Positions 17,599-29,655 of a stretch of 64,000 nucleotides of DNA are shown here, piece after piece. The position numbers and the translations under genes were made by a program. Origin of the DNA: Tsukamurella sp. M9C (lineage in GTDB: Bacteria > Actinomycetota > Actinomycetes > Mycobacteriales > Mycobacteriaceae); NCBI RefSeq assembly GCF_020169415.1, contig NZ_JAIULG010000020.1, positions 1 to 64,000 on the forward strand, in the 5' to 3' direction. The notes under the pieces were generated by a model. The model saw only the letters and a list, made by a program, of their open reading frames with translations, was not told the origin of the DNA and searched no databases. The stretch's first letter is position 1. Every line of letters begins with the position of its first letter.

Positions 17599-18210
17599 GT
17601 GACCTGGCTCTCGATTCACGACCCCGACGGTGACGTGCGAGCGAATCTCGTGCTCGCGCACGGCGCGGGCGGCAACCGCGACCAGGCGATGCTGCGGCTG
17701 CTCGGCGAGGAACTCGCGCAGCGCGGTGTGCGCACCGTCCGCATCGACCTCCCGTTCCGGCGGCTGCGGCCGAAGGGGCCGCCGTCACCGTCGGGCCAGG
17801 CGGCCGACCGGGCCTCGTTCGCGGAGACCGCCCGGCTCCTGGAGCTGGACGGCCCGATCCTGTGGGGCGGGCACAGCTACGGCGGGCGGATGGCGTCGAT
17901 GGCCGTCGCGGAGGGACCGGAGCGGCCCGACGGCCTTCTCCTCCTGTCCTACCCGCTGCACCCGCCCGGGCGGCCGGAGAAGGCCCGCACGGCGCACCTG
18001 CCGGACATCGCCGTCCCGACGGTGCTGGTGCACGGCCGGCGCGACCCCTTCGCCTCGCCGGAGGAGATGGCGGAGGCCGCGGCGCTCATCGCGGGCCCCA
18101 CCACCACCGTCGAGGTCGCGGCCGCGCACGACCTGGCGCCCGCGAAGTCCGGCGCACCGGCGAAGGCCGCCGACGCCGTGATCGCGCTGCTGGATCAGGC
18201 GAAGGCGTAG
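17599..18210 (+). CDS. Alpha/beta-hydrolase, dienelactone-hydrolase/KANL3-Tex30-like
   Basis: 203 residues from a GTG at 17599. LVLAHGAGGNRDQAML carries the oxyanion region, GGHSYGG the nucleophile (near residue 95), HGRRDPF the acid, and AAHDL the histidine. This compact cytosolic hydrolase type is widespread and of undefined substrate. The 3' end overlaps the convergent monooxygenase gene by 16 bp. Confidence 0.8.
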   Translation: MTWLSIHDPDGDVRANLVLAHGAGGNRDQAMLRLLGEELAQRGVRTVRIDLPFRRLRPKGPPSPSGQAADRASFAETARLLELDGPILWGGHSYGGRMASMAVAEGPERPDGLLLLSYPLHPPGRPEKARTAHLPDIAVPTVLVHGRRDPFASPEEMAEAAALIAGPTTTVEVAAAHDLAPAKSGAPAKAADAVIALLDQAKA

Positions 18211-19682
18211 TCCTCGATCGGGAAGGTGCGGGCGTCGCGGCGGGCGCCGATCACTGAGCTCGGCCGCAGCAGCGTCGCCTCGCCGTGCGGGTCGAAGTAG
18301 TAACTGCGGCTGCCCTCGCACGCGCCCAGCTGGAAGACGGACCGCCCCAGCCGCGACGACATCGTCTCCAGGAACTTCGCGTTCGCCTGCTCCGTCACCT
18401 CGACGGTGCGCGCGCCGGTCCGGTCGATCTCGTCGAAGACGCGGCGCAGGTGCACCATCTGCGCCTCGATGGTCCAGAAGTAGCTCAGGCCCGTGTAGCT
18501 GTACGGGCTGTGCAGGCTGAAGAAGTTGGGGAACTTCGGCACCGCCATGCCCTCGTAGGCCTGGAAGCGCCCCTCGCGCCAGAACTCGCCGAGGTTCCGC
18601 CCGTCCCGGCCGGTCACGTCGATCGCGGGGAAGTTCTTCTCCCACAGCGAGAACCCCGTGGCGAGCACGAGGGTGTCGAGCTCGTGGACGGTGCCGTCGG
18701 CCATCTCGATGCCGTGCGGCAGCACCCGGGCGATGGACGAGGCCTCGAGGGTCACGTTGTCGCGGCTGAAGGACGGGAAGTAGGTGTTGGAGAAGGTGGG
18801 CCGCTTGCAGCCGAAGGAGTACGACGGGGTGAGCGCCGCCCGCGTCTCCGGGTCCGGGACCTGCGCGCGCAGGTGCGCCTTGGCGAGCAGCGCCGCGATG
18901 TCGTTGAAGCGGTGCCCGTACTTGTAGTTGAGCACGCCGACGGTGCTGAGCACCTCGAGCGCCGTCGAGTTCGCGAGCCGCGCCGCGCGCTGCGTCACGG
19001 GCAGGCGGCCGAACAGGGCCTTCACCGGGCCGGGGACGTCGAAGTCGACCTTGGGCACCACCCAGATCGGGGTGCGCTGGAAGACGGTGAGGTGCCCGGC
19101 GACCTTCGCCAGCTCCGGGACCAGCTGCACGCCGGTCGCGCCGGTGCCGATGATCCCGATCCGCTGCCCGGCGAGGTCGGCGTCGTCGTCCCACTTCGCG
19201 CTGTGGATGACGGTGCCGGCGAAGTCGTCGATGCCCTCGATGTCGGGGAGCTTGGGCTGGCTGAGGAAGCCGGTCGCGGTGATGAGGTAGCGGGTGCGGA
19301 GCTTCTGTTCGAGGCCGCCGTCGCGGACGACGGTGACCTCCCACTCGGCGGCCTGCGGATCCCAGACGGCGCCGGTGACGTCGACGCCGAAGCGCATCAG
19401 CGGCCGCAGCCCGTACTTGTCGGCGACCCGGCTCGCGTAGGCCTTGAGCTCGGAGCCGGGCGCGTACAGCCGCGACCAGTTCGGGTTGGGCTCGAAGGAG
19501 TACGAGTAGGTCACCGAGGCGATGTCGACCGCGAGGCCCGGGTAGTGGTTGACGTGCCACGTCCCGCCCAGGTCCTCCTCGCGCTCGAGGATGAGGATGT
19601 CGTTGCGACCGCGGCCGAGGAGTTCGATCGCGGCACCCATGCCGCCGAACCCCGCGCCGACGATGATCACGTCGTGCGTCAT
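18195..19682 (-). CDS. FAD-dependent Baeyer-Villiger-type monooxygenase
   Basis: 495 residues. The ATG at 19682 is preferred because GGAGGG lies 8 nt upstream; an in-frame ATG 15 nt earlier coincides with that site. The FAD Rossmann motif is GAGFGGMG (9-16). The BVMO fingerprint FxGxxxHxxxW appears as FAGTVIHSAKW near residue 155, followed by a second NADPH dinucleotide motif GTGATG. These enzymes insert oxygen next to a ketone to give an ester or lactone, which the neighbouring hydrolase could open. About 35% of positions look shared with the second copy at 47.9 kb (visual estimate). Confidence 0.88.
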   Translation of the reverse strand: MTHDVIIVGAGFGGMGAAIELLGRGRNDILILEREEDLGGTWHVNHYPGLAVDIASVTYSYSFEPNPNWSRLYAPGSELKAYASRVADKYGLRPLMRFGVDVTGAVWDPQAAEWEVTVVRDGGLEQKLRTRYLITATGFLSQPKLPDIEGIDDFAGTVIHSAKWDDDADLAGQRIGIIGTGATGVQLVPELAKVAGHLTVFQRTPIWVVPKVDFDVPGPVKALFGRLPVTQRAARLANSTALEVLSTVGVLNYKYGHRFNDIAALLAKAHLRAQVPDPETRAALTPSYSFGCKRPTFSNTYFPSFSRDNVTLEASSIARVLPHGIEMADGTVHELDTLVLATGFSLWEKNFPAIDVTGRDGRNLGEFWREGRFQAYEGMAVPKFPNFFSLHSPYSYTGLSYFWTIEAQMVHLRRVFDEIDRTGARTVEVTEQANAKFLETMSSRLGRSVFQLGACEGSRSYYFDPHGEATLLRPSSVIGARRDARTFPIEDYAFA

Positions 19683-19736
19683 GTCCAGTCCCTCCATCGT
19701 CCACTGCCCTTTTTGTGAACGGAATGTCAGTTGAAA

Positions 19737-19752
19737 TCTACGTCAGTGTAGA
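19737..19752. promoter_or_regulatory. Candidate operator upstream of the monooxygenase gene
   Basis: A dyad TCTAC-N6-GTAGA lies 55 bp upstream of the start at 19682, with GTCAG repeated at 19726 and 19742. It is suitable for a dimeric repressor, but no regulator gene is adjacent, so the assignment is weak. Confidence 0.35.
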
Positions 19753-19778
19753 ACCGGGCGCATCCCGCCGCCTCCTAC

Positions 19779-20549
19779 TCAGGGCGGAGTCGCGCCCGCC
19801 CGCGCGGCCAGCAGCACGACGCCCAGCACCGCTCCCCCGACGGTCGTCGCCGCGAACAGCGCCACCCACACGCCGCCGGGGATCCTGGTCAGCCGGGCCA
19901 GCTGGTCGGCGTCGCTCTCCTGGCCCCGCCCGCGACGGCGCAGGGACTGCAGCTCGGCGACAGCGCGCGGCGCCCCGAAGAGGAGGAACCAGGTACCCAC
20001 GTGGGCCAGCGCGACCTTCGCGTCCGGGGCCGCCCACCAGGAGACGGCGACCACGACCGCGGCGGCGAGGAGCACCACGTACAGGCCGAAGAAGTTGCGG
20101 ATCTGCAGGAGCAGCAGCGCCAGCAGGAGCACCGCGGCCCACAGCGCGGCCAGGGCGTAGCCGCGGGAGAGCAAGACGGCGGCGACCAGGCCGATCACCG
20201 TCGGCGCCGGGTAGCCGGCCGCGAACGTGGTGACCATGCCGGGCCCGCGGGGTCGCCCGCGGGAGACGGTGAGCCCGGAGGTGTCGGAGTGCAGGCGGAC
20301 GCCGCTGAGCCGGCGTCCGCAGAGCACGGCGGTCACGGCGTGGCCGCCCTCGTGGGCGATGGTCACCACGTGCCGGGCCCGGCGCCACGCGGGCCGCCAC
20401 AGGACCAGGACGAGGGCCGCGACGGCCGTGCCCACCAGGACGGCGGCGCTCGGCGCGGGCTGGCGGTCGGCCACGTCGGCGACGACGCGGTCCCAGGCGT
20501 GGGCGAGGGCGTCGGGAAGGGCGGGATCCACCCGGTGCACGGTAGTCAC
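19779..20549 (-). CDS. M50-type membrane metallopeptidase-like protein
   Basis: 256 residues with about five membrane segments. The zinc motif HEGGH (HExxH, residues 66-70) sits at the membrane border, and a later FFGLYVVLLAAA region may supply further site residues. This matches the short actinobacterial M50B-like family related to site-2 proteases. Whether it cleaves a substrate is uncertain because a classical NxxPxxxxxxD motif is not obvious (SWWAAPDAKV is the nearest). Gene stands alone on the minus strand. Confidence 0.75.
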   Translation of the reverse strand: MTTVHRVDPALPDALAHAWDRVVADVADRQPAPSAAVLVGTAVAALVLVLWRPAWRRARHVVTIAHEGGHAVTAVLCGRRLSGVRLHSDTSGLTVSRGRPRGPGMVTTFAAGYPAPTVIGLVAAVLLSRGYALAALWAAVLLLALLLLQIRNFFGLYVVLLAAAVVVAVSWWAAPDAKVALAHVGTWFLLFGAPRAVAELQSLRRRGRGQESDADQLARLTRIPGGVWVALFAATTVGGAVLGVVLLAARAGATPP

Positions 20550-20653
20550 GGCCGCTGTGGGAACGCTGAGTCCGCACTCTCCCGGCCCGTGCGGTCGATA
20601 GTGCCCGCTGGGCGGGCAGAATCCACCGCACGCTCGGCCGATAACCTGGACGC

Positions 20654-21676
20654 ATGAGCCTCACCCCCCATTCGAGCCGCAGCCAGATCGTCACCGTGAC
20701 CGAGGTGATCGACGAGACGGCGCTCGCGAAGTCCTTCGTCTTCGATGCGGAGTGGGACTACCGGCCGGGCCAGTTCGTCACCGTCCGGGTCCCGTCGGAG
20801 CGCACGGGGTCCGTCGCCCGCTCCTACTCGCTGTACACCTCCCCGTTCGACGACGCGAAGCCCGGCGTGACCGTCAAGCGGACCGTCGACGGGTACGCCT
20901 CGAACTGGCTCTGCGACAACGTCACCGCGGGCGACGAGCTCGAGGTCCTGCCGCCGTCGGGCGTCTTCGTGCCGGAGAGCCTCGACGTGCCGCTGCTGCT
21001 GCTCGCGGCGGGCAGCGGCATCACGCCGATCATGTCGATCCTGGCGGCCGCACTCAAGGCCGGCACGCAGCCGGTCACGCTGCTGTACGCCAACGCCGAC
21101 CCGGAGGCCACGATCTTCCGCGCGGAGATCGCGCGACTGGAGGCGGAACACGAACGGCTCACGGTGATCTGGTGGATGGAGTCAGAGCGGGGCATCCCCG
21201 ACGCCGACATGCTGTCCGCGCTGCTCACGCCGTACCACTCGCGCGCGACCTACCTGTGCGGCCGCGACGAGTTCATGGCCGCCTGCAAGGAGGCCGCCAG
21301 GGTGATCGGCACCCCGCGCGAGCAGGTGCACCAGGAGATCTACGCCTCGCTCACCGGCGACGCCTTCGCCGACATCGTGCCCCACGAGGTGGAGGTCACC
21401 GCGGACTCGCCGCAGGTCACCGTCCACAACCTGGGCGCGAGCTTCACCGTGCCGTGGCCGGAGGGCGAGTCGCTGGTGGACGTGCTCATCAACAACGGCC
21501 ACGACGTGCCGTACTCCTGCCAATCGGGCGAGTGCGCCACGTGCCTGTGCAAGCTGACGAAGGGCACCGTCGCGATGGCGGTGACCGACGGACTCGACCC
21601 CGACGACGCCGAGGACGGCTACATTCTGGGGTGCCAGGCGAAGCCGACGTCGCCAGAGTTGGAGGTCGAGTACTGA
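20654..21676 (+). CDS. KshB-like ferredoxin-NAD(P) reductase with C-terminal [2Fe-2S] domain
   Basis: 340 residues. FAD domain: RPGQFVTVRVP and RSYSLYTSP. NAD domain: AAGSGITPIMSI and YLCGRDEFM. C-terminal plant-type ferredoxin domain: CQSGECATC followed by the fourth Cys in GYILGCQAK. This order is that of KshB/HmpA/PaaE reductases, which feed electrons to Rieske or other oxygenases. Its stop overlaps the next gene's ATG by one base, indicating a two-gene operon. The oxygenase partner is not in the immediate neighbourhood. A paralogue is at 52.3 kb. Confidence 0.9.
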   Translation: MSLTPHSSRSQIVTVTEVIDETALAKSFVFDAEWDYRPGQFVTVRVPSERTGSVARSYSLYTSPFDDAKPGVTVKRTVDGYASNWLCDNVTAGDELEVLPPSGVFVPESLDVPLLLLAAGSGITPIMSILAAALKAGTQPVTLLYANADPEATIFRAEIARLEAEHERLTVIWWMESERGIPDADMLSALLTPYHSRATYLCGRDEFMAACKEAARVIGTPREQVHQEIYASLTGDAFADIVPHEVEVTADSPQVTVHNLGASFTVPWPEGESLVDVLINNGHDVPYSCQSGECATCLCKLTKGTVAMAVTDGLDPDDAEDGYILGCQAKPTSPELEVEY

Positions 21677-22791
21677 TGCGGATCCGCGGAGCGGTGCTGG
21701 AGGAGATCGGGCGCGCGCGTCCGTACGCGCGGTCGCAGCCGATCTCGGTGGGCGAGCTCGAGCTCGCGCCGCCGGGCCCCGGCGAACTCCTGGTCCGCAT
21801 CGAGGCCGCGGGCCTGTGCCATTCGGATCTGTCGGTGGTCGACGGCAACCGCGTCCGCCCCGTGCCGATGCTGCTGGGCCACGAGGCCGCGGGCATCGTC
21901 GAGGCGCTGGGGCCCGGCACCGAGGGCGTCGCGGTCGGCGACCGCGTGGTCATGGCCTTCCTCCCCCGCTGCGGCGAGTGCGCCAATTGCCGCACCGACG
22001 GCCAGCTTCCGTGCACGCCGGGCAGCGTCGCCAACAACGCCGGCGAGCTGCTGGGCGGCGGCCGGCGACTGTCGCGCGACGGCGCGGAGGTGCACCACCA
22101 CCTCGGGGTGTCCGGCTTCGCGACGCACACCGTGGTGGACGCCCGCTCCGTCACCCGCGTGGATGCCGATGTGCCGCCGGAGATCGCGGCCGTCCTCGGC
22201 TGCGCCGTGCTCACCGGCGGCGGTGCGGTGCTCAACGCCGGCGCACCGTCGAACGGCGACGACGTGATCGTCGTCGGCCTGGGCGGGGTCGGCATGGCCG
22301 CCGTCCTCACCGCCCTGTCCCTGCAGGCCGACGGTGCCGTCGGCCGCGTGATCGGCGTCGACGCGCAGCCCGCGAAGCTGGAGCAGGTGCGCGCCCTCGG
22401 CGCCGACGCCGCCTACACCCCTGCGGAACTCGCCGAGGCCGGCGTGCGCGCGCCCGTCGTGATCGAGGCGGCGGGCCACCCGAAGGCCTTCGAATCCGCG
22501 GTGGCGGCGACCGCTGTCGGCGGCCGGACGGTGACCGTCGGGCTGCCGAATCCCGCTGCGCGGTCCGAGATCAGCCCGCTCGTGCTCACCGCCGAGGCCC
22601 GCACCATCATCGGCAGCTACCTCGGCTCCGCCGTCCCGCAGCGCGACATCCCGCGGTACGTCGAGATGTGGCGCGCCGGCCGCCTGCCGGTCGAGAAGCT
22701 GATCAGCGGCGTCATCACGCTGGCGCAGATCAACGAGGGTATGGACTCCCTGGCCGACGGTGCCGCCGTCCGCCAGGTGATCCGCTTCTGA
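21676..22791 (+). CDS. Zinc-dependent alcohol dehydrogenase (MDR superfamily)
   Basis: 371 residues from the ATG overlapping the reductase stop. Catalytic zinc ligands are seen in AAGLCHSDLS (Cys) and LLGHEAAG (His-Glu). The structural zinc loop PRCGECANCRTDGQLPC has four Cys, and the NAD(H) Rossmann motif is VVGLGGVGMAA. Family members oxidise primary or secondary alcohols. In M. tuberculosis, adhD lies with a BVMO and SDR in the mymA operon, a related arrangement. Its last bases (22769-22792) are one copy of the 24-bp direct repeat. Confidence 0.9.
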   Translation: MRIRGAVLEEIGRARPYARSQPISVGELELAPPGPGELLVRIEAAGLCHSDLSVVDGNRVRPVPMLLGHEAAGIVEALGPGTEGVAVGDRVVMAFLPRCGECANCRTDGQLPCTPGSVANNAGELLGGGRRLSRDGAEVHHHLGVSGFATHTVVDARSVTRVDADVPPEIAAVLGCAVLTGGGAVLNAGAPSNGDDVIVVGLGGVGMAAVLTALSLQADGAVGRVIGVDAQPAKLEQVRALGADAAYTPAELAEAGVRAPVVIEAAGHPKAFESAVAATAVGGRTVTVGLPNPAARSEISPLVLTAEARTIIGSYLGSAVPQRDIPRYVEMWRAGRLPVEKLISGVITLAQINEGMDSLADGAAVRQVIRF

Positions 22792-22792
22792 C
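22769..22792. repeat. Direct repeat copy 1 (left boundary of TetR-MFS cassette)
   Basis: A 24-bp sequence beginning TCCGCCAGGTGATCCG and ending TTCTGAC; it matches 25002-25025 at 23 of 24 positions. This copy encodes the alcohol dehydrogenase C-terminus and stop, so it is likely the original copy. Confidence 0.8.
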
Positions 22793-22794
22793 GC

Positions 22795-23418
22795 CTAGGT
22801 CGCGGGCCGGATGCCGGCCAGGACGATGCCGATCTGACCGGCGACGTCGATGCCGTCCGGCACCTGCTCGGCGACCATGCCGATACCGCTGATCAGCTGC
22901 GACACGGTGCGGTAGCCGATCTCGGGGCGCACGAGGCCGGCGGCCCGCGCGCGCTCGAGGACACCCTCGCCGGCGGAGCCGAGTGCGGTCTTGCAGCTGT
23001 AGAGGACCGAGGTGTCGTCGTCGTCCGCGTCGGCGAGCAGGCGAGCGTGCAGGCCGCGGAAGAACGACTTGTGCTCGTAGTGGCTGTGCGCCCACTCGGA
23101 GAGGGCGCGCTCCGGTTCGACGTCGGCGAGGGCGATCAGCCGCTCCCCGTCGGCGGCGACCTCCACCTGCCAGTCGTCCAGGACTGCGCGATGCAGATGC
23201 GCGCGGGTCGGGAAGTGCCGGTACAGGGTGCCCGGCCCGACGCCCGCGGCTTTGGCGATCTCATCGAGAGACGCATCGGCTCCGCGATCACCGAACGCCT
23301 CGCGGGCGACCGCGAGGATCTTGTCGCGGTTGCGCTGTGCGTCCGCACGCAGCGGGCGCGGCGCCTCGACCCGTGGCGCACCGCCGACCGATACCGACCT
23401 TTCGGACACTTCGCTCAC
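22795..23418 (-). CDS. TetR-family transcriptional regulator of the adjacent efflux pump
   Basis: 207 residues from the GTG at 23418; a second GTG 9 nt downstream is also possible, and the frame extends upstream across the operators, which argues against longer starts. N-terminal helix-turn-helix: RDKILAVAREAFGDRGADAS-LDEIAKAAGVGPGTLYRHF. The C-terminal ligand domain contains LYSCKTALGSAGEGVLERARAAGLVRPEI, the usual TetR_C layout. It is divergent from the MFS gene with three operator-like palindromes between them, so it very probably represses both genes and itself. Confidence 0.9.
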   Translation of the reverse strand: MSEVSERSVSVGGAPRVEAPRPLRADAQRNRDKILAVAREAFGDRGADASLDEIAKAAGVGPGTLYRHFPTRAHLHRAVLDDWQVEVAADGERLIALADVEPERALSEWAHSHYEHKSFFRGLHARLLADADDDDTSVLYSCKTALGSAGEGVLERARAAGLVRPEIGYRTVSQLISGIGMVAEQVPDGIDVAGQIGIVLAGIRPAT

Positions 23419-23431
23419 ACCCCTTGCAAAC

Positions 23432-23510
23432 CGGAGACTGCCTCCGTAGCGTAACCGGAGAGGGCCTCCGATTCGCCGATTCATCTCCGAAAAACCGGAG
23501 CCGCTCTCCA
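23432..23510. promoter_or_regulatory. Three operator sites for the divergent TetR-MFS pair
   Basis: Two perfect 15-bp palindromes CGGAG-N5-CTCCG occur at 23432-23446 and 23456-23470 (24 bp apart). A third, with one changed base (CGGAG-N5-CTCCA), is at 23496-23510. Each is preceded by AC. Placement between the divergent starts is what a TetR repressor needs. Confidence 0.75.
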
Positions 23511-23579
23511 CATCGTAGCCCCTCGGCCGAGAACCGGGGACCATCGACCCGCCATCACCAGTGAATCAGGACACACTTC

Positions 23580-25013
23580 ATGTCGACGATCACCGCATCG
23601 GCTCTCCCGGACCGACCAGGAGCGCCTGCGCGCCCCGGCCTCATCCTCTCCGTCATCCTCACCGTCCAGCTCATGCTCGTGCTGGACGCCACCGTCGTGA
23701 ACGTCGCGCTACCGATCGTGCACAGCGCGTTCGGCTTCTCCGCCGCCGACCTGTCGTGGGTACTCAACGCCTACACCCTGGCGTTCGGCGGGCTGCTCCT
23801 GCTGGGCGGGCGTCTCGGCGACGTGCTCGGCTACCGGCGAACCTTCCTCGGCGGGCTCGTCGTCTTCCTCATCGGCTCAGTGCTCGGCGGGTTCGCCCTG
23901 ACGGGCGTCTGGCTGGTCGCCGCCCGCGCGGTGCAGGGCGTGGGTGCGGCGATCGCCGCGCCGGCGGCGCTGGCCCTGCTCACCCGGTCACAGCCGGAGG
24001 GCGCCGCGCGCAACCGCGCGCTCGGCCTGTTCGCGGCGGTCAGCTCCGGCGGCGGCTCGGTCGGCCTGCTCCTCGGCGGCGCCCTCACCTCGTGGGCGTC
24101 CTGGCGCTGGGCCTTCTTCATCAACGTGCCGATCGGGATCGCCGCGCTGGTCCTCGGATCCCGGCTGCTCCCGAGAACGCCCCGTCGACGCGAGCCCTTC
24201 GACGTGCCCGGCGCGCTCGCCGCGACCATCGGCATGACATCGCTCGTCGCCGGCTTCGTCTGGCTCCCCGAGAGCGGCATCGCGCCGCGCACCGTGGCGG
24301 CGTTCGGCGTAGCAGTGATCGCCCTGGCCACGCTCTGCGTCGTCGAACGTCGCACCGATCACCCGCTGTTCGCGTTCCGCCTGCTCCGGGATCCCCACCG
24401 GGTGGCCGCACTGGTCGGGTTCGTGCTCATCGTGGGCCCGCAGATGACCGCGTTCTTCTTCCTGGTGCAGTTCCTCCAGGTGGTACACGGCTATTCCGCG
24501 TTCCTGACGGGCGTCGCCTTCCTCCCACTGACGCTGGGCATCTTCGGCGTCTCCCGGATCTCGCCGCGCCTGGTGAACCGATTCGGGCCCGCGCCGGTCG
24601 CGGTCGTCGGCACGATCCTGCTGGCCGTGGGGCACTTCCAGCTTGCACAACTCACCACGAGCAGCGGCTACTGGGCCGCCGTGTTCGTCCCCACACTCCT
24701 GCTCGGTATCGGCGGCGGGCTCGCCTTCATGCCCTTCACCAGCCGCATCCTCTCGGGCGTCCCCGCCTCCGATGCGGGCGCGGCCGCGGGCCTGATGCAG
24801 ACGGCGCAGCAGGCCGGCGGCGTAGCGCTCGGCCTCGCTGTGCTCATCGCGATCTCCGGAATCAGCTCCGGCGAGGGTGCGACGACGACGGTGCCGGATT
24901 TGATCTCGGGCATGGATCGCGCGTTCCTCGCGGGCTCCGGCTTCGTCGCCCTGAGTCTGCTGATCACGCTCGGGTCGGCACTGTGGAGTAGGAAGCCGGT
25001 CTCCGCCAGGTGA
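23580..25013 (+). CDS. MFS drug-efflux transporter (DHA2, 14-TM type)
   Basis: 477 residues, about 14 hydrophobic segments. Motif A is LLLLGGRLGDVLGYRRTF after the second segment; motif C-like glycine-rich stretches follow in segment 5, and the N-terminus has LDATVVNVALP, the D1 motif of DHA2 proton antiporters. Predicted to export toxic compounds using proton motive force. The last codons and stop (…SAR, TGA) lie inside the second 24-bp direct repeat, so the present 3' end was created when the cassette joined this site. Confidence 0.9.
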   Translation: MSTITASALPDRPGAPARPGLILSVILTVQLMLVLDATVVNVALPIVHSAFGFSAADLSWVLNAYTLAFGGLLLLGGRLGDVLGYRRTFLGGLVVFLIGSVLGGFALTGVWLVAARAVQGVGAAIAAPAALALLTRSQPEGAARNRALGLFAAVSSGGGSVGLLLGGALTSWASWRWAFFINVPIGIAALVLGSRLLPRTPRRREPFDVPGALAATIGMTSLVAGFVWLPESGIAPRTVAAFGVAVIALATLCVVERRTDHPLFAFRLLRDPHRVAALVGFVLIVGPQMTAFFFLVQFLQVVHGYSAFLTGVAFLPLTLGIFGVSRISPRLVNRFGPAPVAVVGTILLAVGHFQLAQLTTSSGYWAAVFVPTLLLGIGGGLAFMPFTSRILSGVPASDAGAAAGLMQTAQQAGGVALGLAVLIAISGISSGEGATTTVPDLISGMDRAFLAGSGFVALSLLITLGSALWSRKPVSAR

Positions 25014-25025
25014 TCCGGTTCTGAC
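25002..25025. repeat. Direct repeat copy 2 (right boundary of TetR-MFS cassette)
   Basis: Matches 22769-22792 at 23 of 24 positions. Here it is read in a different frame as the end of the MFS gene and finishes exactly at the stop codon of the convergent SDR gene. Confidence 0.8.
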
Positions 25026-25844
25026 CTACGCCTGGGGCGCCTCCGGCGGCGACGCGGGCCGCGGCCAGTCCGTCGGGCGCTGCTGGGCGTCGAGGCCACC
25101 GTCGGCGAAGACGACGGAGCCCACGCAGTACCCGGACTCGGGGCCGAGCAGGAACTGCGCGAGCGCGGCGATCTCCTCCGGCTTCCCGGCGCGGCCGGCG
25201 GGGATCAGCTCGAGGAAGGCGTCCATCGCGGCACCGAGCTGCGGGTCGGCGCGCCCGGCCTGCGTCATCGGGGTGTCGATGAGCCCCGGCGCGATGGCGT
25301 TGAGCCGGATGCCCTGCCGCACGTACTCGGCGGCGTGCGTGCGCACGTAGTAGGCCAGCGCGGCCTTCGTCGCCGGGTAGGCCAGGATCGAGGCGTACTC
25401 GCCGTAGGAGTCGGCGAGGTCGGAAGCGGCGTGCTCGTCGCCGTCGAGGCACATCTCGGCCAGCTGCAGCGGCCAGCCCGGCTGCGTGGTCGTGGAGTTC
25501 GAGCTCACCAGCAGCGCCGCCGACGGCCCGCGGGCGAGCAGGGGCCGCAGCCCCACCAGCAGGTCGACCGCCCCGAAGTAGTTCACCGCGACGACCGACG
25601 CGCCCGAGCGGCCCGCGGCCGGCCCCAGCCCGGCGAACGCGGCGAAGCCGGCGAGCGGCGCGGAGCCCACCAGCTCGCCGATCCGCGCGACGGCCTCGAA
25701 CCGGCCCCCGGGCGTCCCGAGATCGGCCTCGACGTCGGTCCCGCGCAGGTCGACGCCGATCACGCCGTGCCCGGCGGCGTGCAGCCGCTCCGCCGTCGCC
25801 GCGCCGAGACCCGACGCCGCACCCGTCACCACGTACATGCTCAT
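25026..25844 (-). CDS. SDR-family oxidoreductase, 3-alpha-hydroxysteroid dehydrogenase-like
   Basis: 272 residues from the ATG at 25844 (AAGG lies 9 nt upstream; ATGs at 25853 and 25838 are alternatives). NAD motif TGAASGLG at the N-terminus; catalytic Ser in VSSNSTT and Tyr-Lys in YPATK. The layout VRTHAAEYVRQGIRLNAIAPG then DTPMTQAG and FADGGLDA resembles Comamonas 3-alpha-HSD/carbonyl reductase. Likely substrates are hydroxysteroids or related ketones, which fits the nearby BVMO and KshB-like genes. Convergent with the MFS gene. Confidence 0.88.
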   Translation of the reverse strand: MSMYVVTGAASGLGAATAERLHAAGHGVIGVDLRGTDVEADLGTPGGRFEAVARIGELVGSAPLAGFAAFAGLGPAAGRSGASVVAVNYFGAVDLLVGLRPLLARGPSAALLVSSNSTTTQPGWPLQLAEMCLDGDEHAASDLADSYGEYASILAYPATKAALAYYVRTHAAEYVRQGIRLNAIAPGLIDTPMTQAGRADPQLGAAMDAFLELIPAGRAGKPEEIAALAQFLLGPESGYCVGSVVFADGGLDAQQRPTDWPRPASPPEAPQA

Positions 25845-25943
25845 ATCCCCCATCCTTCCCCCTGCGAACGGATTCGCGGCAAATCGGATGACATCCGCCC
25901 CGGTCCGGTTTAGCGTGAACGCACGCCGACCAGAGGAGACCCC

Positions 25944-26102
25944 ATGACCGACGACGGTATCGCCGACAAGTTCAAGGAAGCACTCGAACGCAAGAACGCG
26001 TCGAACCGCAAGGGTTCCGCCCACCTGGACGGGTCCGCGAAGCCCGCGACCCCGCACGGGTCGGAGAGCCACCAGCAGCAGTTCCGTCGCAAGAGCGGAT
26101 AG
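25944..26102 (+). CDS. DUF5302 family small protein
   Basis: 52 residues, preceded by GAGGAG. It begins MTDDGIADKFKEALERKNA and ends QQFRRKSG; this C-terminal FRRKSG and the short highly charged body are the hallmarks of the actinobacterial DUF5302 family. No membrane segment or catalytic motif. It is expected to be an abundant intrinsically disordered protein; function not known. Confidence 0.8.
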   Translation: MTDDGIADKFKEALERKNASNRKGSAHLDGSAKPATPHGSESHQQQFRRKSG

Positions 26103-26116
26103 CGGAACCGCGCGAC

Positions 26117-26148
26117 GGCCCGGCGAACCCGACAGGGATCGCCGGGCC
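26117..26148. terminator. Hairpin between convergent DUF5302 and SHOCT-like genes
   Basis: Perfect 10-bp arms GGCCCGGCGA (26117-26126) and TCGCCGGGCC (26139-26148) with a 12-nt loop sit between two convergent stops, so it probably terminates both. Confidence 0.7.
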
Positions 26149-26963
26149 TACGTCGTTCCCAGCAGCCGCCGCCGGGCCTCCCCGTACTCGCGCTCGCTGA
26201 TCCGCCCGGCCGCCCGCAGCGCGTCCAGCTCGTCCAGCCGCTCGGTGAGCGACCTCCCGTCGGTGGCCGCCGCGCCCGGCTGCCGCCCGTACTGCCGGAC
26301 GATCGCCATCACCTCCTGCCGGAGGTACGGATCGCCGTTCCGCAGGTCGACGGTGCCGTCCGTCGCGATCCCGTGCCGGCGGAGGACCTCCAGGATCGCG
26401 ATCAGGGGGCCGGGCTGCCCGCTGAGGTCGTAGGTCCGGCCGTCCTCCGCCGACGAGAACTGCGCCGGCACCGAACCCGCCACCAGCGCCGACGCCTGCC
26501 AGTCGATCTCGAACTCCCGCGTCGCGGGGTCGACGACGACCGCGAGCACGCGGCGGTGCAGCAGCCCCTGCGCCACGATCGGCACCGTCTTGCGGATCTG
26601 CGCGTCGAACGTCGGCACCCCGTCGCCGTGGATCCGCAGGCCGAGCTTCATCAGGGGCTGCCCGTTGATCTCGACGGTGGTCTGTTCGACCGACGTGAGG
26701 TCGGCGAGGGCCATCCGGCCCGTCGCCATCATGCGGGCGATCTTCTCGCGCCGGTTGTCCGCGCCGTACGCGATGGCGAAGGCGATGAGCACGTTGAGCA
26801 CCGTGATCGCCGCGCCGGTCCAGAACATCCACTGCAGCGACCGGTCGCCGATCACGAAGTACAGCACCAGGAAGATCGGCCCGACGATCCCGCACAGCAT
26901 CACGAAGGCGAGGGTCCGGAGGAACGTGCCGACGAAGCCGCGATCGGCGCGTGCTGTGTCCAT
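26148..26963 (-). CDS. Membrane protein with C-terminal SHOCT-like domain
   Basis: 271 residues from the ATG at 26963. Two adjacent membrane segments (TFLRTLAFVMLCGIVGPIFL region and the FWTGAAITVLNVLIAFAIAY region) are followed by a soluble beta-rich domain. A C-terminal helical SHOCT motif LDELDALRAAGRISEREYGE-ARRRLL ends the protein. SHOCT domains are short oligomerisation modules at the ends of actinobacterial membrane proteins. Function unknown. No strong ribosome binding site precedes this start. Confidence 0.75.
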   Translation of the reverse strand: MDTARADRGFVGTFLRTLAFVMLCGIVGPIFLVLYFVIGDRSLQWMFWTGAAITVLNVLIAFAIAYGADNRREKIARMMATGRMALADLTSVEQTTVEINGQPLMKLGLRIHGDGVPTFDAQIRKTVPIVAQGLLHRRVLAVVVDPATREFEIDWQASALVAGSVPAQFSSAEDGRTYDLSGQPGPLIAILEVLRRHGIATDGTVDLRNGDPYLRQEVMAIVRQYGRQPGAAATDGRSLTERLDELDALRAAGRISEREYGEARRRLLGTT

Positions 26964-27051
26964 GGATGCAGGGTACGGACGCGTCGGGCGACCCCACAGG
27001 GCATCCGATAGACTTGCGATCGCACTACGACGGTCGCACGAGGAGGGTGTC

Positions 27052-27942
27052 ATCGACCTTCCGCTACTGATCCCCGTACCGATCGTGCGCCGCCCGGTAC
27101 CCGAGGGCGTGCCGCCGGAAAACCCTGCCGTCCATCAGGTCCGAGCCGTCATCGGGTCGATCCTCGGCTCGCTCCGGGGCGGTCCGCACCTGCCGGAGTC
27201 GGGCCTGAACTGGGCCGCCGCCTACCTCACCCGCGGGCCCGAGCCGCTGCTCGTCGTGACCACCACCGACGCCGGCTGGCTGCCGCTCGGCACCATCGTC
27301 CCCGCGGGCGTGCGCGTGCTGTGGAACGTCCCCACGGCGGCCGCGTGGGCCACCGTCGACGATCCCGTGCGGCAGCTGGTGGAGTTCGCGGAGGCCGAGG
27401 GCTACACGATCCACGCGGTCGCCACCACCCACCCCAGCCGGGCGCACCACATCCCGAACGGCCCGTGGAAGCTCGTCGGCGAGCGCCATCCCGGGCAGGT
27501 ACTGCCGTACCGGGTCACGCGCTTCGAGGCCGTCGCCTCCCCCGCCCGCGTCGCGCACATCCGCACCCTGTACCCCGACGAGGCCGATCGCCAGGCCCGC
27601 GCCCTCCTCCGCGACCTGGAGCGGATCACCGTCGAGCCCGAGTACGCGATCGGCGTCGACGAGGCCCGCGCGGAGGCGCGACGGTACCTCGCCGCCGGCC
27701 GGGACGTGCCCGCGGCGGTGGGCGATCAGCTGCTGCTCGACCAGGACGCCCTCGCCGATGCGCTGAACCTGGCGCGCACCCCGCCGCGGTCGCTGACCGC
27801 CGGCGGCGGCCCGCCCGACGGTGCGGCGCTCCGGTCCCGGCTCGTCGAGCGCGCGCTGGTGGAGGTCACGATCGCCGCGGCCCGGCACGACCTGGAGTCC
27901 GCGATCTACGGCTGGACCTTCGCGCGCTACCTGGCGCGCTGA
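27052..27942 (+). CDS. Conserved hypothetical cytosolic protein; start codon uncertain (possible ATC)
   Basis: About 296 residues if translation begins at the ATC at 27052, which lies 5 nt after a perfect AGGAGG (27041-27046). No ATG, GTG or TTG in frame fits that ribosome binding site. The alternatives are a GTG at 27085 (285 aa) or an ATG at 26962 (326 aa, before the binding site). The protein starts near IDLPLLIPVPIVRRPVPEGV and has an Ala-rich helical C-terminus. No membrane segment or known motif was recognised. Confidence 0.75.
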   Translation: MDLPLLIPVPIVRRPVPEGVPPENPAVHQVRAVIGSILGSLRGGPHLPESGLNWAAAYLTRGPEPLLVVTTTDAGWLPLGTIVPAGVRVLWNVPTAAAWATVDDPVRQLVEFAEAEGYTIHAVATTHPSRAHHIPNGPWKLVGERHPGQVLPYRVTRFEAVASPARVAHIRTLYPDEADRQARALLRDLERITVEPEYAIGVDEARAEARRYLAAGRDVPAAVGDQLLLDQDALADALNLARTPPRSLTAGGGPPDGAALRSRLVERALVEVTIAAARHDLESAIYGWTFARYLAR

Positions 27943-27949
27943 GCGGCCA

Positions 27950-28309
27950 TCAGGGGTACGTCTTGTACCGGTCCCAGTGGCGGACGCACAGGTACTGCGC
28001 CGCGTAGAAGACGAGCTGCTGCCGCTCCCACAGCGGGTACGCCCGCTCGTCGTTGTAGAGCGCGCGCGTCGCCCCGGCGGTGCTCCCCGGGTTCCGGTCG
28101 AGCGCGGCGCACGCCCGGTAGCCGAACCGGACCATCTGGGCGTCGGTGGTCCGATCGCCGAACGGCTTGGTGAAGTCGTGGAGGTTCTTCGAGGCCACGA
28201 CGAACCGGCCCTCGTCGAGCCGGCCGTCGGCCTGCGCGGGCGCCTGCACCAGCGCGGCGCACCCCAGCGCCACGGCCGCGGCCGCCACCGCCCTCATCAG
28301 CTTCGGCAT
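27950..28309 (-). CDS. Small secreted protein, DUF732-like
   Basis: 119 residues with a Sec signal peptide (AAAAVALGCAALVQAPAQA, cut before DG). The mature part has two Cys in GYRACAAL and AAQYLCVRH, arranged like the Cys pair of the mycobacterial DUF732 family, which would form one disulfide. The helical layout also fits. I do not see enough of the family core to be sure. Convergent with the preceding gene, 7 bp between stops. Confidence 0.65.
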   Translation of the reverse strand: MPKLMRAVAAAAVALGCAALVQAPAQADGRLDEGRFVVASKNLHDFTKPFGDRTTDAQMVRFGYRACAALDRNPGSTAGATRALYNDERAYPLWERQQLVFYAAQYLCVRHWDRYKTYP

Positions 28310-28410
28310 CGTCTCGCTCCTCGCCTCCGGTGGGCCCGGCCCACGTGTCGTGGCGATTATCGCCGATCGCGCGAACGCCGGGGCGCGAACCCGAGAAGCC
28401 CGGAAACGCG

Positions 28411-28446
28411 GAACGGCGCCCCTCCCCGAAGGGAGAGGCGCCGTTC
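28411..28446 (-). terminator. Intrinsic terminator after tuf
   Basis: GAACGGCGCCCCTCCC (28411-28426) pairs with 28431-28446 with one mismatch, with loop CGAA. It lies 18 bp past the tuf stop and ends the str operon. Confidence 0.85.
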
Positions 28447-28464
28447 ACGGCTGGTTACCGAAGA

Positions 28465-29655
28465 TCAGGCGATGATCTTGGTGACGCGGCCGGCACCGAC
28501 GGTGCGGCCACCCTCGCGGATCGCGAAGCGCAGGCCCTCGTCCATGGCGACCGGCTGGATGAGCTTGACGCTCATCTCGGTGTTGTCGCCGGGCATGACC
28601 ATCTCGGTGCCCTCGGGGAGGGTCACGACGCCGGTCACGTCCGTGGTACGGAAGTAGAACTGCGGGCGGTAGTTGTTGAAGAACGGGGTGTGGCGGCCGC
28701 CCTCGTCCTTCGACAGGATGTACGCCTGGCCCTCGAACTCCTTGTGGGGAGTGGTGGTGCCGGGCTTCACGACGACCTGGCCGCGCTCGACGTCCTCACG
28801 CTTGAGGCCACGGACCAGCAGGCCGACGTTGTCGCCCGCCTGGCCCGAGTCCAGCAGCTTGCGGAACATCTCGATGCCGGTGACGGTGGTCTTCGTCGAC
28901 TTCTCGCGGATGCCGACGATCTCGACCTCCTCGTTGACGTTGACGATGCCGCGCTCGACACGACCGGTGACGACGGTGCCACGACCGGTGATCGTGAAGA
29001 CGTCCTCGACGGGCATGAGGAAGGGCTTGTCGGTCTCACGCTCGGGATCCGGGATCGCGGTGTCGACCGCGTTCATCAGCTCGAGGATCGACTCGGTCCA
29101 CTTGGGGTCGCCCTGCAGCGCCTGGTAGCCCGAAACGCGGACGACGGGGGCGTCCTCGTCGAACTCCTGCGAACCCAGCAGCTCGCGGACCTCCATCTCG
29201 ACGAGCTCGAGGATCTCCTCGTCGTCGACCATGTCGCACTTGTTCAGGGCGACCAGGATGTAGGGCACGCCGACCTGGCGGGCGAGCAGCACGTGCTCAC
29301 GCGTCTGGGGCATCGGGCCGTCGGTGGCGGCCACGACCAGGATCGCGCCGTCCATCTGGGCCGCACCGGTGATCATGTTCTTGATGTAGTCGGCGTGACC
29401 GGGAGCGTCGACGTGAGCGTAGTGACGCTTCTCCGTCTGGTACTCGACGTGGGAGATGTTGATCGTGATACCACGAGCCTTCTCCTCCGGCGCCTTGTCG
29501 ATCTGATCGAAGGCCGAGGCCTCGTTCAGGTCCGGGTACTTCTCGGCCAGAACCTTGGTGATGGCAGCCGTCAGGGTGGTCTTGCCGTGGTCGACGTGAC
29601 CGATGGTGCCGATGTTCACGTGCGGCTTCGTCCGCTCGAACTTCGCCTTCGCCAC
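28465..29655 (-). CDS. tuf: Elongation factor Tu
   Basis: 396 residues from the GTG at 29655 ([20 protein letters not shown]), with AGGAGG 10 nt upstream. G motifs: [16 protein letters not shown] and NKCDM; domains 2 and 3 complete. It delivers aminoacyl-tRNA to the ribosome as a GTPase. It is the last gene of the str operon, 122 bp after fusA. Confidence 0.98.

Follow-up and report, generated by a model that had tools for sequence, protein, structure and literature searches.

Organisation of the locus and its direct repeat

The window analysed here, 64,000 nt of a Tsukamurella genome (G000, contig C23), contains a TetR-MFS gene pair, termed the cassette below, which lies between the 3' ends of an alcohol dehydrogenase gene (ADH) and a short-chain dehydrogenase gene (SDR) and is bracketed by a 24-bp direct repeat. 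Along the plus strand the genes are ordered as a ferredoxin-reductase-like gene, ADH, TetR (minus strand), MFS (plus strand) and SDR (minus strand), and coordinates are collected in Table 1. The left copy of the repeat reads TCCGCCAGGTGATCCGCTTCTGAC and the right copy TCCGCCAGGTGATCCGGTTCTGAC, the two differing at a single position, C on the left and G on the right (CGCTTC versus CGGTTC). Read in a different frame, the right copy provides the final three codons of MFS (S-A-R) and its TGA, and the SDR stop triplet (CTA, 25026-25028) starts directly after it. The first-pass annotation had described a 24-bp repeat with one mismatch at the ADH end and, in another frame, at the MFS end, finishing exactly at the SDR stop and supplying the MFS stop from duplicated DNA, and the sequence bears this out, the right copy ending at 25025 and carrying the TGA. 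Its figure of two bases between the ADH and SDR stops after removal of the insert needs correction, as the joined flanks leave one (C).

Allowing up to three mismatches, the repeat sequence matched the window just twice, against a shuffle expectation of 0.00, and no other two 24-mers in the 64 kb with at most one mismatch are separated by 300-8000 bp. When 400 kb of the genome was sampled, nine merged pairs of equal similarity and spacing turned up, seven of them in two places (three close pairs at 112-113 kb of contig C22, spacing 333-562, and four at 79-80 kb of contig C44, spacing 1504-1510) and two further pairs occurring singly.

Comparison with congeners

The comparison set consisted of 15 congener genomes (G001-G015) and the genome's own (G000). 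DNA searches matched ADH in all 15 congeners and SDR in 12. In seven of the 15 (G002, G003, G006, G008, G009, G013 and G015) the site is empty: ADH abuts SDR tail to tail, and the locus holds a single copy of the 24-bp sequence or of a near variant. In G007 ~0.1 kb of other sequence separates the two genes, G004, G005, G012 and G014 have 1.7-6.5 kb of different DNA there, and G001, G010 and G011 are without an SDR match. The cassette was not found in any of the 15 congeners by protein search; their best full-length MFS matches share 44-47% amino acid identity, and a short contig of G011 gave a partial MFS match (54% over 213 residues). Because the site is empty in seven of 15 congeners and the cassette is missing from all 15, acquisition in this lineage is probable. 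The earlier proposal of an insertion with the repeat as its footprint, which was to be checked by looking for empty sites in relatives, is thus upheld by the comparison.

The junction sequence of G003, G015 and G009, ...TCCGCCAGGTGATCCGGTTCTGACCTAC..., matches the right copy and its flank base for base. As it continues into CCTAC, just as the DNA to the right of the right copy does, the right copy is the ancestral ADH-SDR junction, the left one being where the functioning ADH gene ends. Across the 16 genomes a 20-base form of the motif occurs at ADH ends and, in G000 and G012, also next to SDR; elsewhere it was met at one ADH-paralogue end in G004 (one mismatch) and in scattered matches with two mismatches. 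Recurrence at many unrelated MFS 3' ends, which the first-pass annotation had raised as a possible objection to its reading, was not what these genomes displayed.

Table 1. Features of the ADH-SDR interval and of corresponding gaps in congeners (positions refer to the window unless a locus is named)
Feature	Position	Strand	Evidence or remark
ADH, Zn-dependent alcohol dehydrogenase; 3' end = insertion site	21676..22791	+	Pfam ADH_N + ADH_zinc_N; DNA match in 15/15 congeners
ADH stretch, G001-like not G003-like; possible donor tract	22188..22791	+	
Left 24-bp repeat copy: final 20 coding bases of ADH + stop + one base; CGCTTC variant	22769..22792	+	
Inserted segment, 2209 bp	22793..25001	none	Cassette absent from 15/15 congeners
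TetR-family regulator, SbtR-like C-terminal domain	22795..23418	-	PF00440 + PF21597; translation
Operator-like palindrome CCGGAG-N5-CTCCG, copy 1	23431..23446	+	
Operator-like palindrome CCGGAG-N5-CTCCG, copy 2	23455..23470	+	
DHA2-like MFS efflux transporter	23580..25013	+	PF07690
Right repeat copy, CGGTTC variant	25002..25025	+	With following CCTAC = empty-site junction of G003, G015, G009
SDR, short-chain dehydrogenase, convergent with ADH; start codon uncertain	25026..25853	-	PF13561; DNA match in 12/15 congeners
Toxin-type cluster loci in the G005, G014 and G004 gaps	L118:6949-8665, L121:9097-13509, L122:2367-8814		

On the far side of SDR, and adjoining it, a DUF5302 protein of 52 amino acids is encoded at 25944-26102 of the window; it was matched at the locus in all 15 congeners.

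The cassette genes and their relatives

The divergent genes of the cassette were found to encode TetR_N and MFS_1 domains. The longest TetR open reading frame starts at 23544, but translation more plausibly begins at a GTG at 23418. For MFS the nearest NCBIfam models were Lmr(A), EmrB/DHA2 and SmvA, all below cut-off, and none of the best 25 of 42 NCBIfam matches reached its cut-off. A TetR-like match divergent from the MFS gene was present in all nine fetched relatives, and the cassette is therefore a widespread, ordinary kind of regulator-pump gene pair. In seven of nine MFS relatives the alignment extends to residue 449 or beyond, followed by tails of varied length, and the repeat gives the last three codons and the stop; thus, the pump has probably lost at most part of its tail.

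Two exact copies of the palindrome CCGGAG-N5-CTCCG, 24 bp apart, lie between the likely TetR start and MFS. With at most one mismatch the motif occurs 12 times in the window, a count reached by 6 of 100 shuffles, and it is not significantly commoner than in the shuffles. The paired palindromes are candidate operators, through which TetR probably represses the pump.

Searches for a donor covered samples of the order and of the class. Among 397 genomes of the order (E<=1e-125) one relative of the cassette was recovered besides the genome's own, at 51% amino acid identity, and among 394 genomes of the class (E<=1e-115) eight, at 48-53%, none of them a close donor. A plasmid protein search gave no match at E<=1e-60, the viral_contigs search yielded no cassette relative, and a DNA search of a phage collection gave one match covering 8% of the query and no close donor. 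As for the proposed check on whether the nearest relatives lie in another genus, the best full-length MFS relatives do, but these reach just 48-53% amino acid identity against 44-47% within the genus, and no donor was identified. A foreign composition was considered and is not supported, the G+C content of TetR and MFS being 70-71% against 71% for the window. Third-position G+C is somewhat low (0.85 for TetR and 0.91 for MFS, compared with 0.92-0.98 in seven neighbouring genes), and the dinucleotide distance of the cassette is exceeded by 99 of 309 windows.

Other inserts at the ADH 3' end

In G012, ADH is followed by a Fic-domain gene and then, before SDR, by a decayed copy of the ADH end. 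When seven gaps (G000, G004, G005, G007, G010, G012 and G014) were searched with nhmmer for such stubs, the G012 copy was recovered at E 4e-7 with 62 nt aligned, and that of G000 at E 0.001; over 44 bases the G012 stub has 38 identical to its own ADH end and 39 to that of G003. No stub was detected by this search in the gaps of G004, G005 and G014, and 15 weaker matches across the seven gaps (E 0.064 to 8.6) were judged to be chance. Between ADH and SDR, G005 and G014 carry Tox-REase-7 and HEAT-repeat genes, with a YbaB-like gene also in G005, and G004 carries open reading frames that by their look resemble these.

The ADH-SDR junction has been rearranged repeatedly, which counts in favour of the reading preferred below. 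A broader proposal, which we regard as speculative and rather unlikely in its full form, is that the ADH 3' end would be a long-lived exchange site of Tsukamurella, where unrelated cassettes (the efflux pair, the Fic gene and the toxin-type genes) would be swapped by ADH-anchored recombination, some leaving scars in the form of ADH-end stubs, with no mobile-element enzyme involved.

Further features were recorded at these loci. In the G012 gap (L120:2230-4030) the stop triplet of the Fic gene sits at the empty-site SDR stop position (TGA-C-CTA), and a stretch before SDR may resemble a CRISPR repeat. The SDR of G004 (L122:9130-10913) is split near residue 173 by a segment encoding a protein with HTH_38 and rve domains, presumably an IS30-like element. 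G011 (L124:1977-2591) has a cytidine-deaminase-like open reading frame (PF00383) between ADH and a DUF5302-like gene, SDR being missing, and in G001 (L117:14350-14480), which has no SDR match, the DUF5302 gene lies within ~85 bp of the ADH end.

Origin of the insertion

For most bins of the region, and for the majority of those in SDR, the nearest genome is G003, whereas the part of ADH that begins at 22188 resembles G001, with 33 of the 42 informative sites in the segment in agreement (p 0.0002 over 20500-26150). The mosaic test used 5000 permutations and a nearer region, 20500-26150, as well as a wider one, 18000-28500. With G015, G005, G007 or G002 as the alternative parent the segment likewise fell mostly or wholly in ADH (p 0.0002-0.0008). 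In the wider region the top segment lay at ~19.0-19.5 kb for G001, G015, G007 and G002, in ADH for G005 and at ~20.4 kb for G013. At the mismatched repeat base, G001 has C and G003 has G.

The reading to which we give most credence, tentatively and without calling it probable, is that the cassette entered by homologous recombination on one side only, with ADH as the anchor, and was closed on the far side by an illegitimate join. It is put forward because there are no terminal inverted repeats and no PF00589 integrase on the contig, because ADH is mosaic, and because the mismatched base separates G001 (C) from G003 (G). The incoming DNA would have carried the 3' end of a related ADH followed by the TetR-MFS pair; recombination of the RecA type would have aligned the donor ADH with the resident one and swapped out the 3' part of the latter, and the far end, near the end of the MFS gene, would have been joined without homology to the chromosome at a point 24 bp short of the resident ADH end. 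The repeat would then consist of a donor ADH end on the left (CGCTTC) and a remnant of the recipient ADH end on the right (CGGTTC), the remnant supplying the MFS stop codon and no duplication step being called for. Such a process would be homology-facilitated illegitimate recombination (HFIR) or something similar. As an alternative to a plain target duplication we mildly favour it, in that a homologous anchor in ADH would account for both the mismatch and the ADH mosaic.

A number of observations weigh against this reading. The mismatched base varies within the genus (C in five and G in seven of the 14 congener ends printed, the other two ends differing in sequence), and CGC and CGG are synonymous, so that a later mutation could have given the mismatch. 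The ADH segment reaches the end of the gene with G001 alone; for G015, G005, G007 and G002 it extends no further than 22386-22579, and G013 as the alternative parent gives no signal in the nearer region (p 0.29). The right edge obtained with G001 leans partly on sites at ~25850-25876, since G001 is without SDR, and G003 has no lead over G015 and G005 in the first SDR bin. A stretch at 19002-19512, which resembles G001, G015 or G007 within a mostly G003-like background, departs from G003 just as strongly, and in the wider region it scores higher than the ADH tract with G001 and ranks first with G015, G007 and partly G002; mosaic tracts are thus common here, and the tract beside the cassette may be coincidental. 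In G012, ADH is closest to the sister genome G006 in six of seven bins up to its end, with no donor tract, and this genome supports recurrence of the footprint and not the donor-tract part of the model. Finally, ADH directly followed by the cassette was not found in the 15 congeners, and the donor is hypothetical. The anchored-recombination reading is weakened because the ADH segments of parents other than G001 stop short of the gene end and because the mismatched base is variable in the genus; given frequent recombination in the region, the coincidence of tract and cassette amounts to just moderate evidence for the mechanism.

Among the alternatives, a staggered double-strand break at the ADH end, followed by fill-in and Ku-type end joining around a captured fragment, would leave a 24-bp target duplication that later acquired its mutation. 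We hold this to be unlikely, yet a serious competitor: the genome has a gene for Ku (PF02735, E 3e-51), the insert is flanked exactly by one clean duplication of 24 bp, and no donor homology is needed, in keeping with searches that found no donor with a linked ADH. It nevertheless requires a mutation after insertion and leaves the G001-like ADH tract unexplained, and a 24-nt overhang is long for a staggered break. Replication slippage, one of the origins suggested by the first-pass annotation, could not by itself import 2.2 kb of new genes. The same annotation had reported no transposase or integrase; there were no terminal inverted repeats at the cassette ends and no PF00589 matches on contig C23, serine recombinases not having been searched.

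A site-specific recombination event that used the ADH 3' end as its attachment site, with an integrase acting in trans or since lost and the two copies representing attL and attR, appears improbable. Tyrosine integrases typically integrate at the 3' end of a gene and restore that end, in G012 a different insert is accompanied by a second copy of the ADH end as described above, and G004, G005 and G014 too have inserts at the same place. Against this, the five PF00589 matches in the genome all lie off the cassette's own contig (a search that did not extend to serine recombinases), the cargoes differ among genomes, the copies are of unequal length (24 versus ~60 nt), the gaps of G004, G005, G007, G010 and G014 hold no significant ADH-end copy, and a 23-base core with two ambiguous bases had no exact copy in viral_contigs. 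A transposon-like element that made an exceptionally long target duplication and has lost its transposase is very improbable. Although 24 bp falls within the 16-28 bp made by a group in the IS1202 family according to an excerpt of PMC10132070, the 2209 bp are filled by the TetR and MFS genes, and the absence of terminal inverted repeats at the cassette ends (best 30-nt identity 0.47, equalled by 560 of 2000 shuffles) largely refutes this reading. We give equally little weight to an ancestral cassette, with the empty sites as precise deletions; recombination between the 24-bp repeats could recreate an exact empty site, but losses would be demanded in other lineages, none of the 15 congeners has an orthologue and the nearest relative, G003, has an empty site.

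Comparison with known systems

The comparisons below draw on excerpts of the papers cited. HFIR has been described in Streptococcus pneumoniae, Acinetobacter baylyi and Pseudomonas stutzeri, and at very low frequency in Escherichia coli conjugation (PMC3240628). The proposed event would be like it in that one DNA end recombines in shared sequence and the other joins without homology, placing foreign genes beside a conserved gene (PMC3240628). The addition of DNA beside ADH is shown by the empty sites and by the absence of the cassette from congeners, with a hypothetical donor ADH. The present case differs in that the process is deduced from a footprint in one actinobacterial genome, and in that the resident loss would be an ADH stretch replaced by the donor version, with no gene lost and a short repeat staying behind. 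Literature on HFIR, including HFIR with Actinobacteria, and on Tsukamurella recombination or horizontal transfer held nothing on this locus in the titles and abstract starts among the matches listed.

In the type VI secretion clusters of Vibrio cholerae, displaced effector 3' ends and arrays of immunity genes occur, and an HFIR-like step has been proposed (PMC5361080). There too, a conserved anchor is followed by a new module, with older parts of genes displaced downstream (PMC5361080), but the immunity genes remain whole and the effector is displaced, whereas what is left here is 24 bp from the end of a dehydrogenase gene. Of the small variable segments that lie between conserved genes, 10-18% have flanking repeats, 66-94% of these repeats being <30 bp, and the excerpted paper reads them mainly as a deletion route (PMC2884548). 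The cassette resembles such segments in lying between backbone genes, with short direct repeats and without mobile-element genes (PMC2884548), and differs in being a complete two-gene unit for which gain rather than loss can be argued from the congeners. In gene order and families it matches the divergent TetR/MFS pairs of EmrB, LfrA and Lmr(A) relatives, although its MFS shares only ~50% amino acid identity.

The locus thus offers a clear footprint of a small accessory gene pair entering an actinobacterial chromosome without a visible mobile element. It suggests that a short direct repeat need not mean target duplication, as it can be two orthologous gene ends, and that a mismatch between the copies can carry a donor's signature; with other genes behind the same ADH end in several congeners, this is testable with more strains. 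Both the parts and the process are of known kinds, and the reading of the repeat as donor and recipient gene ends is the part worth testing.

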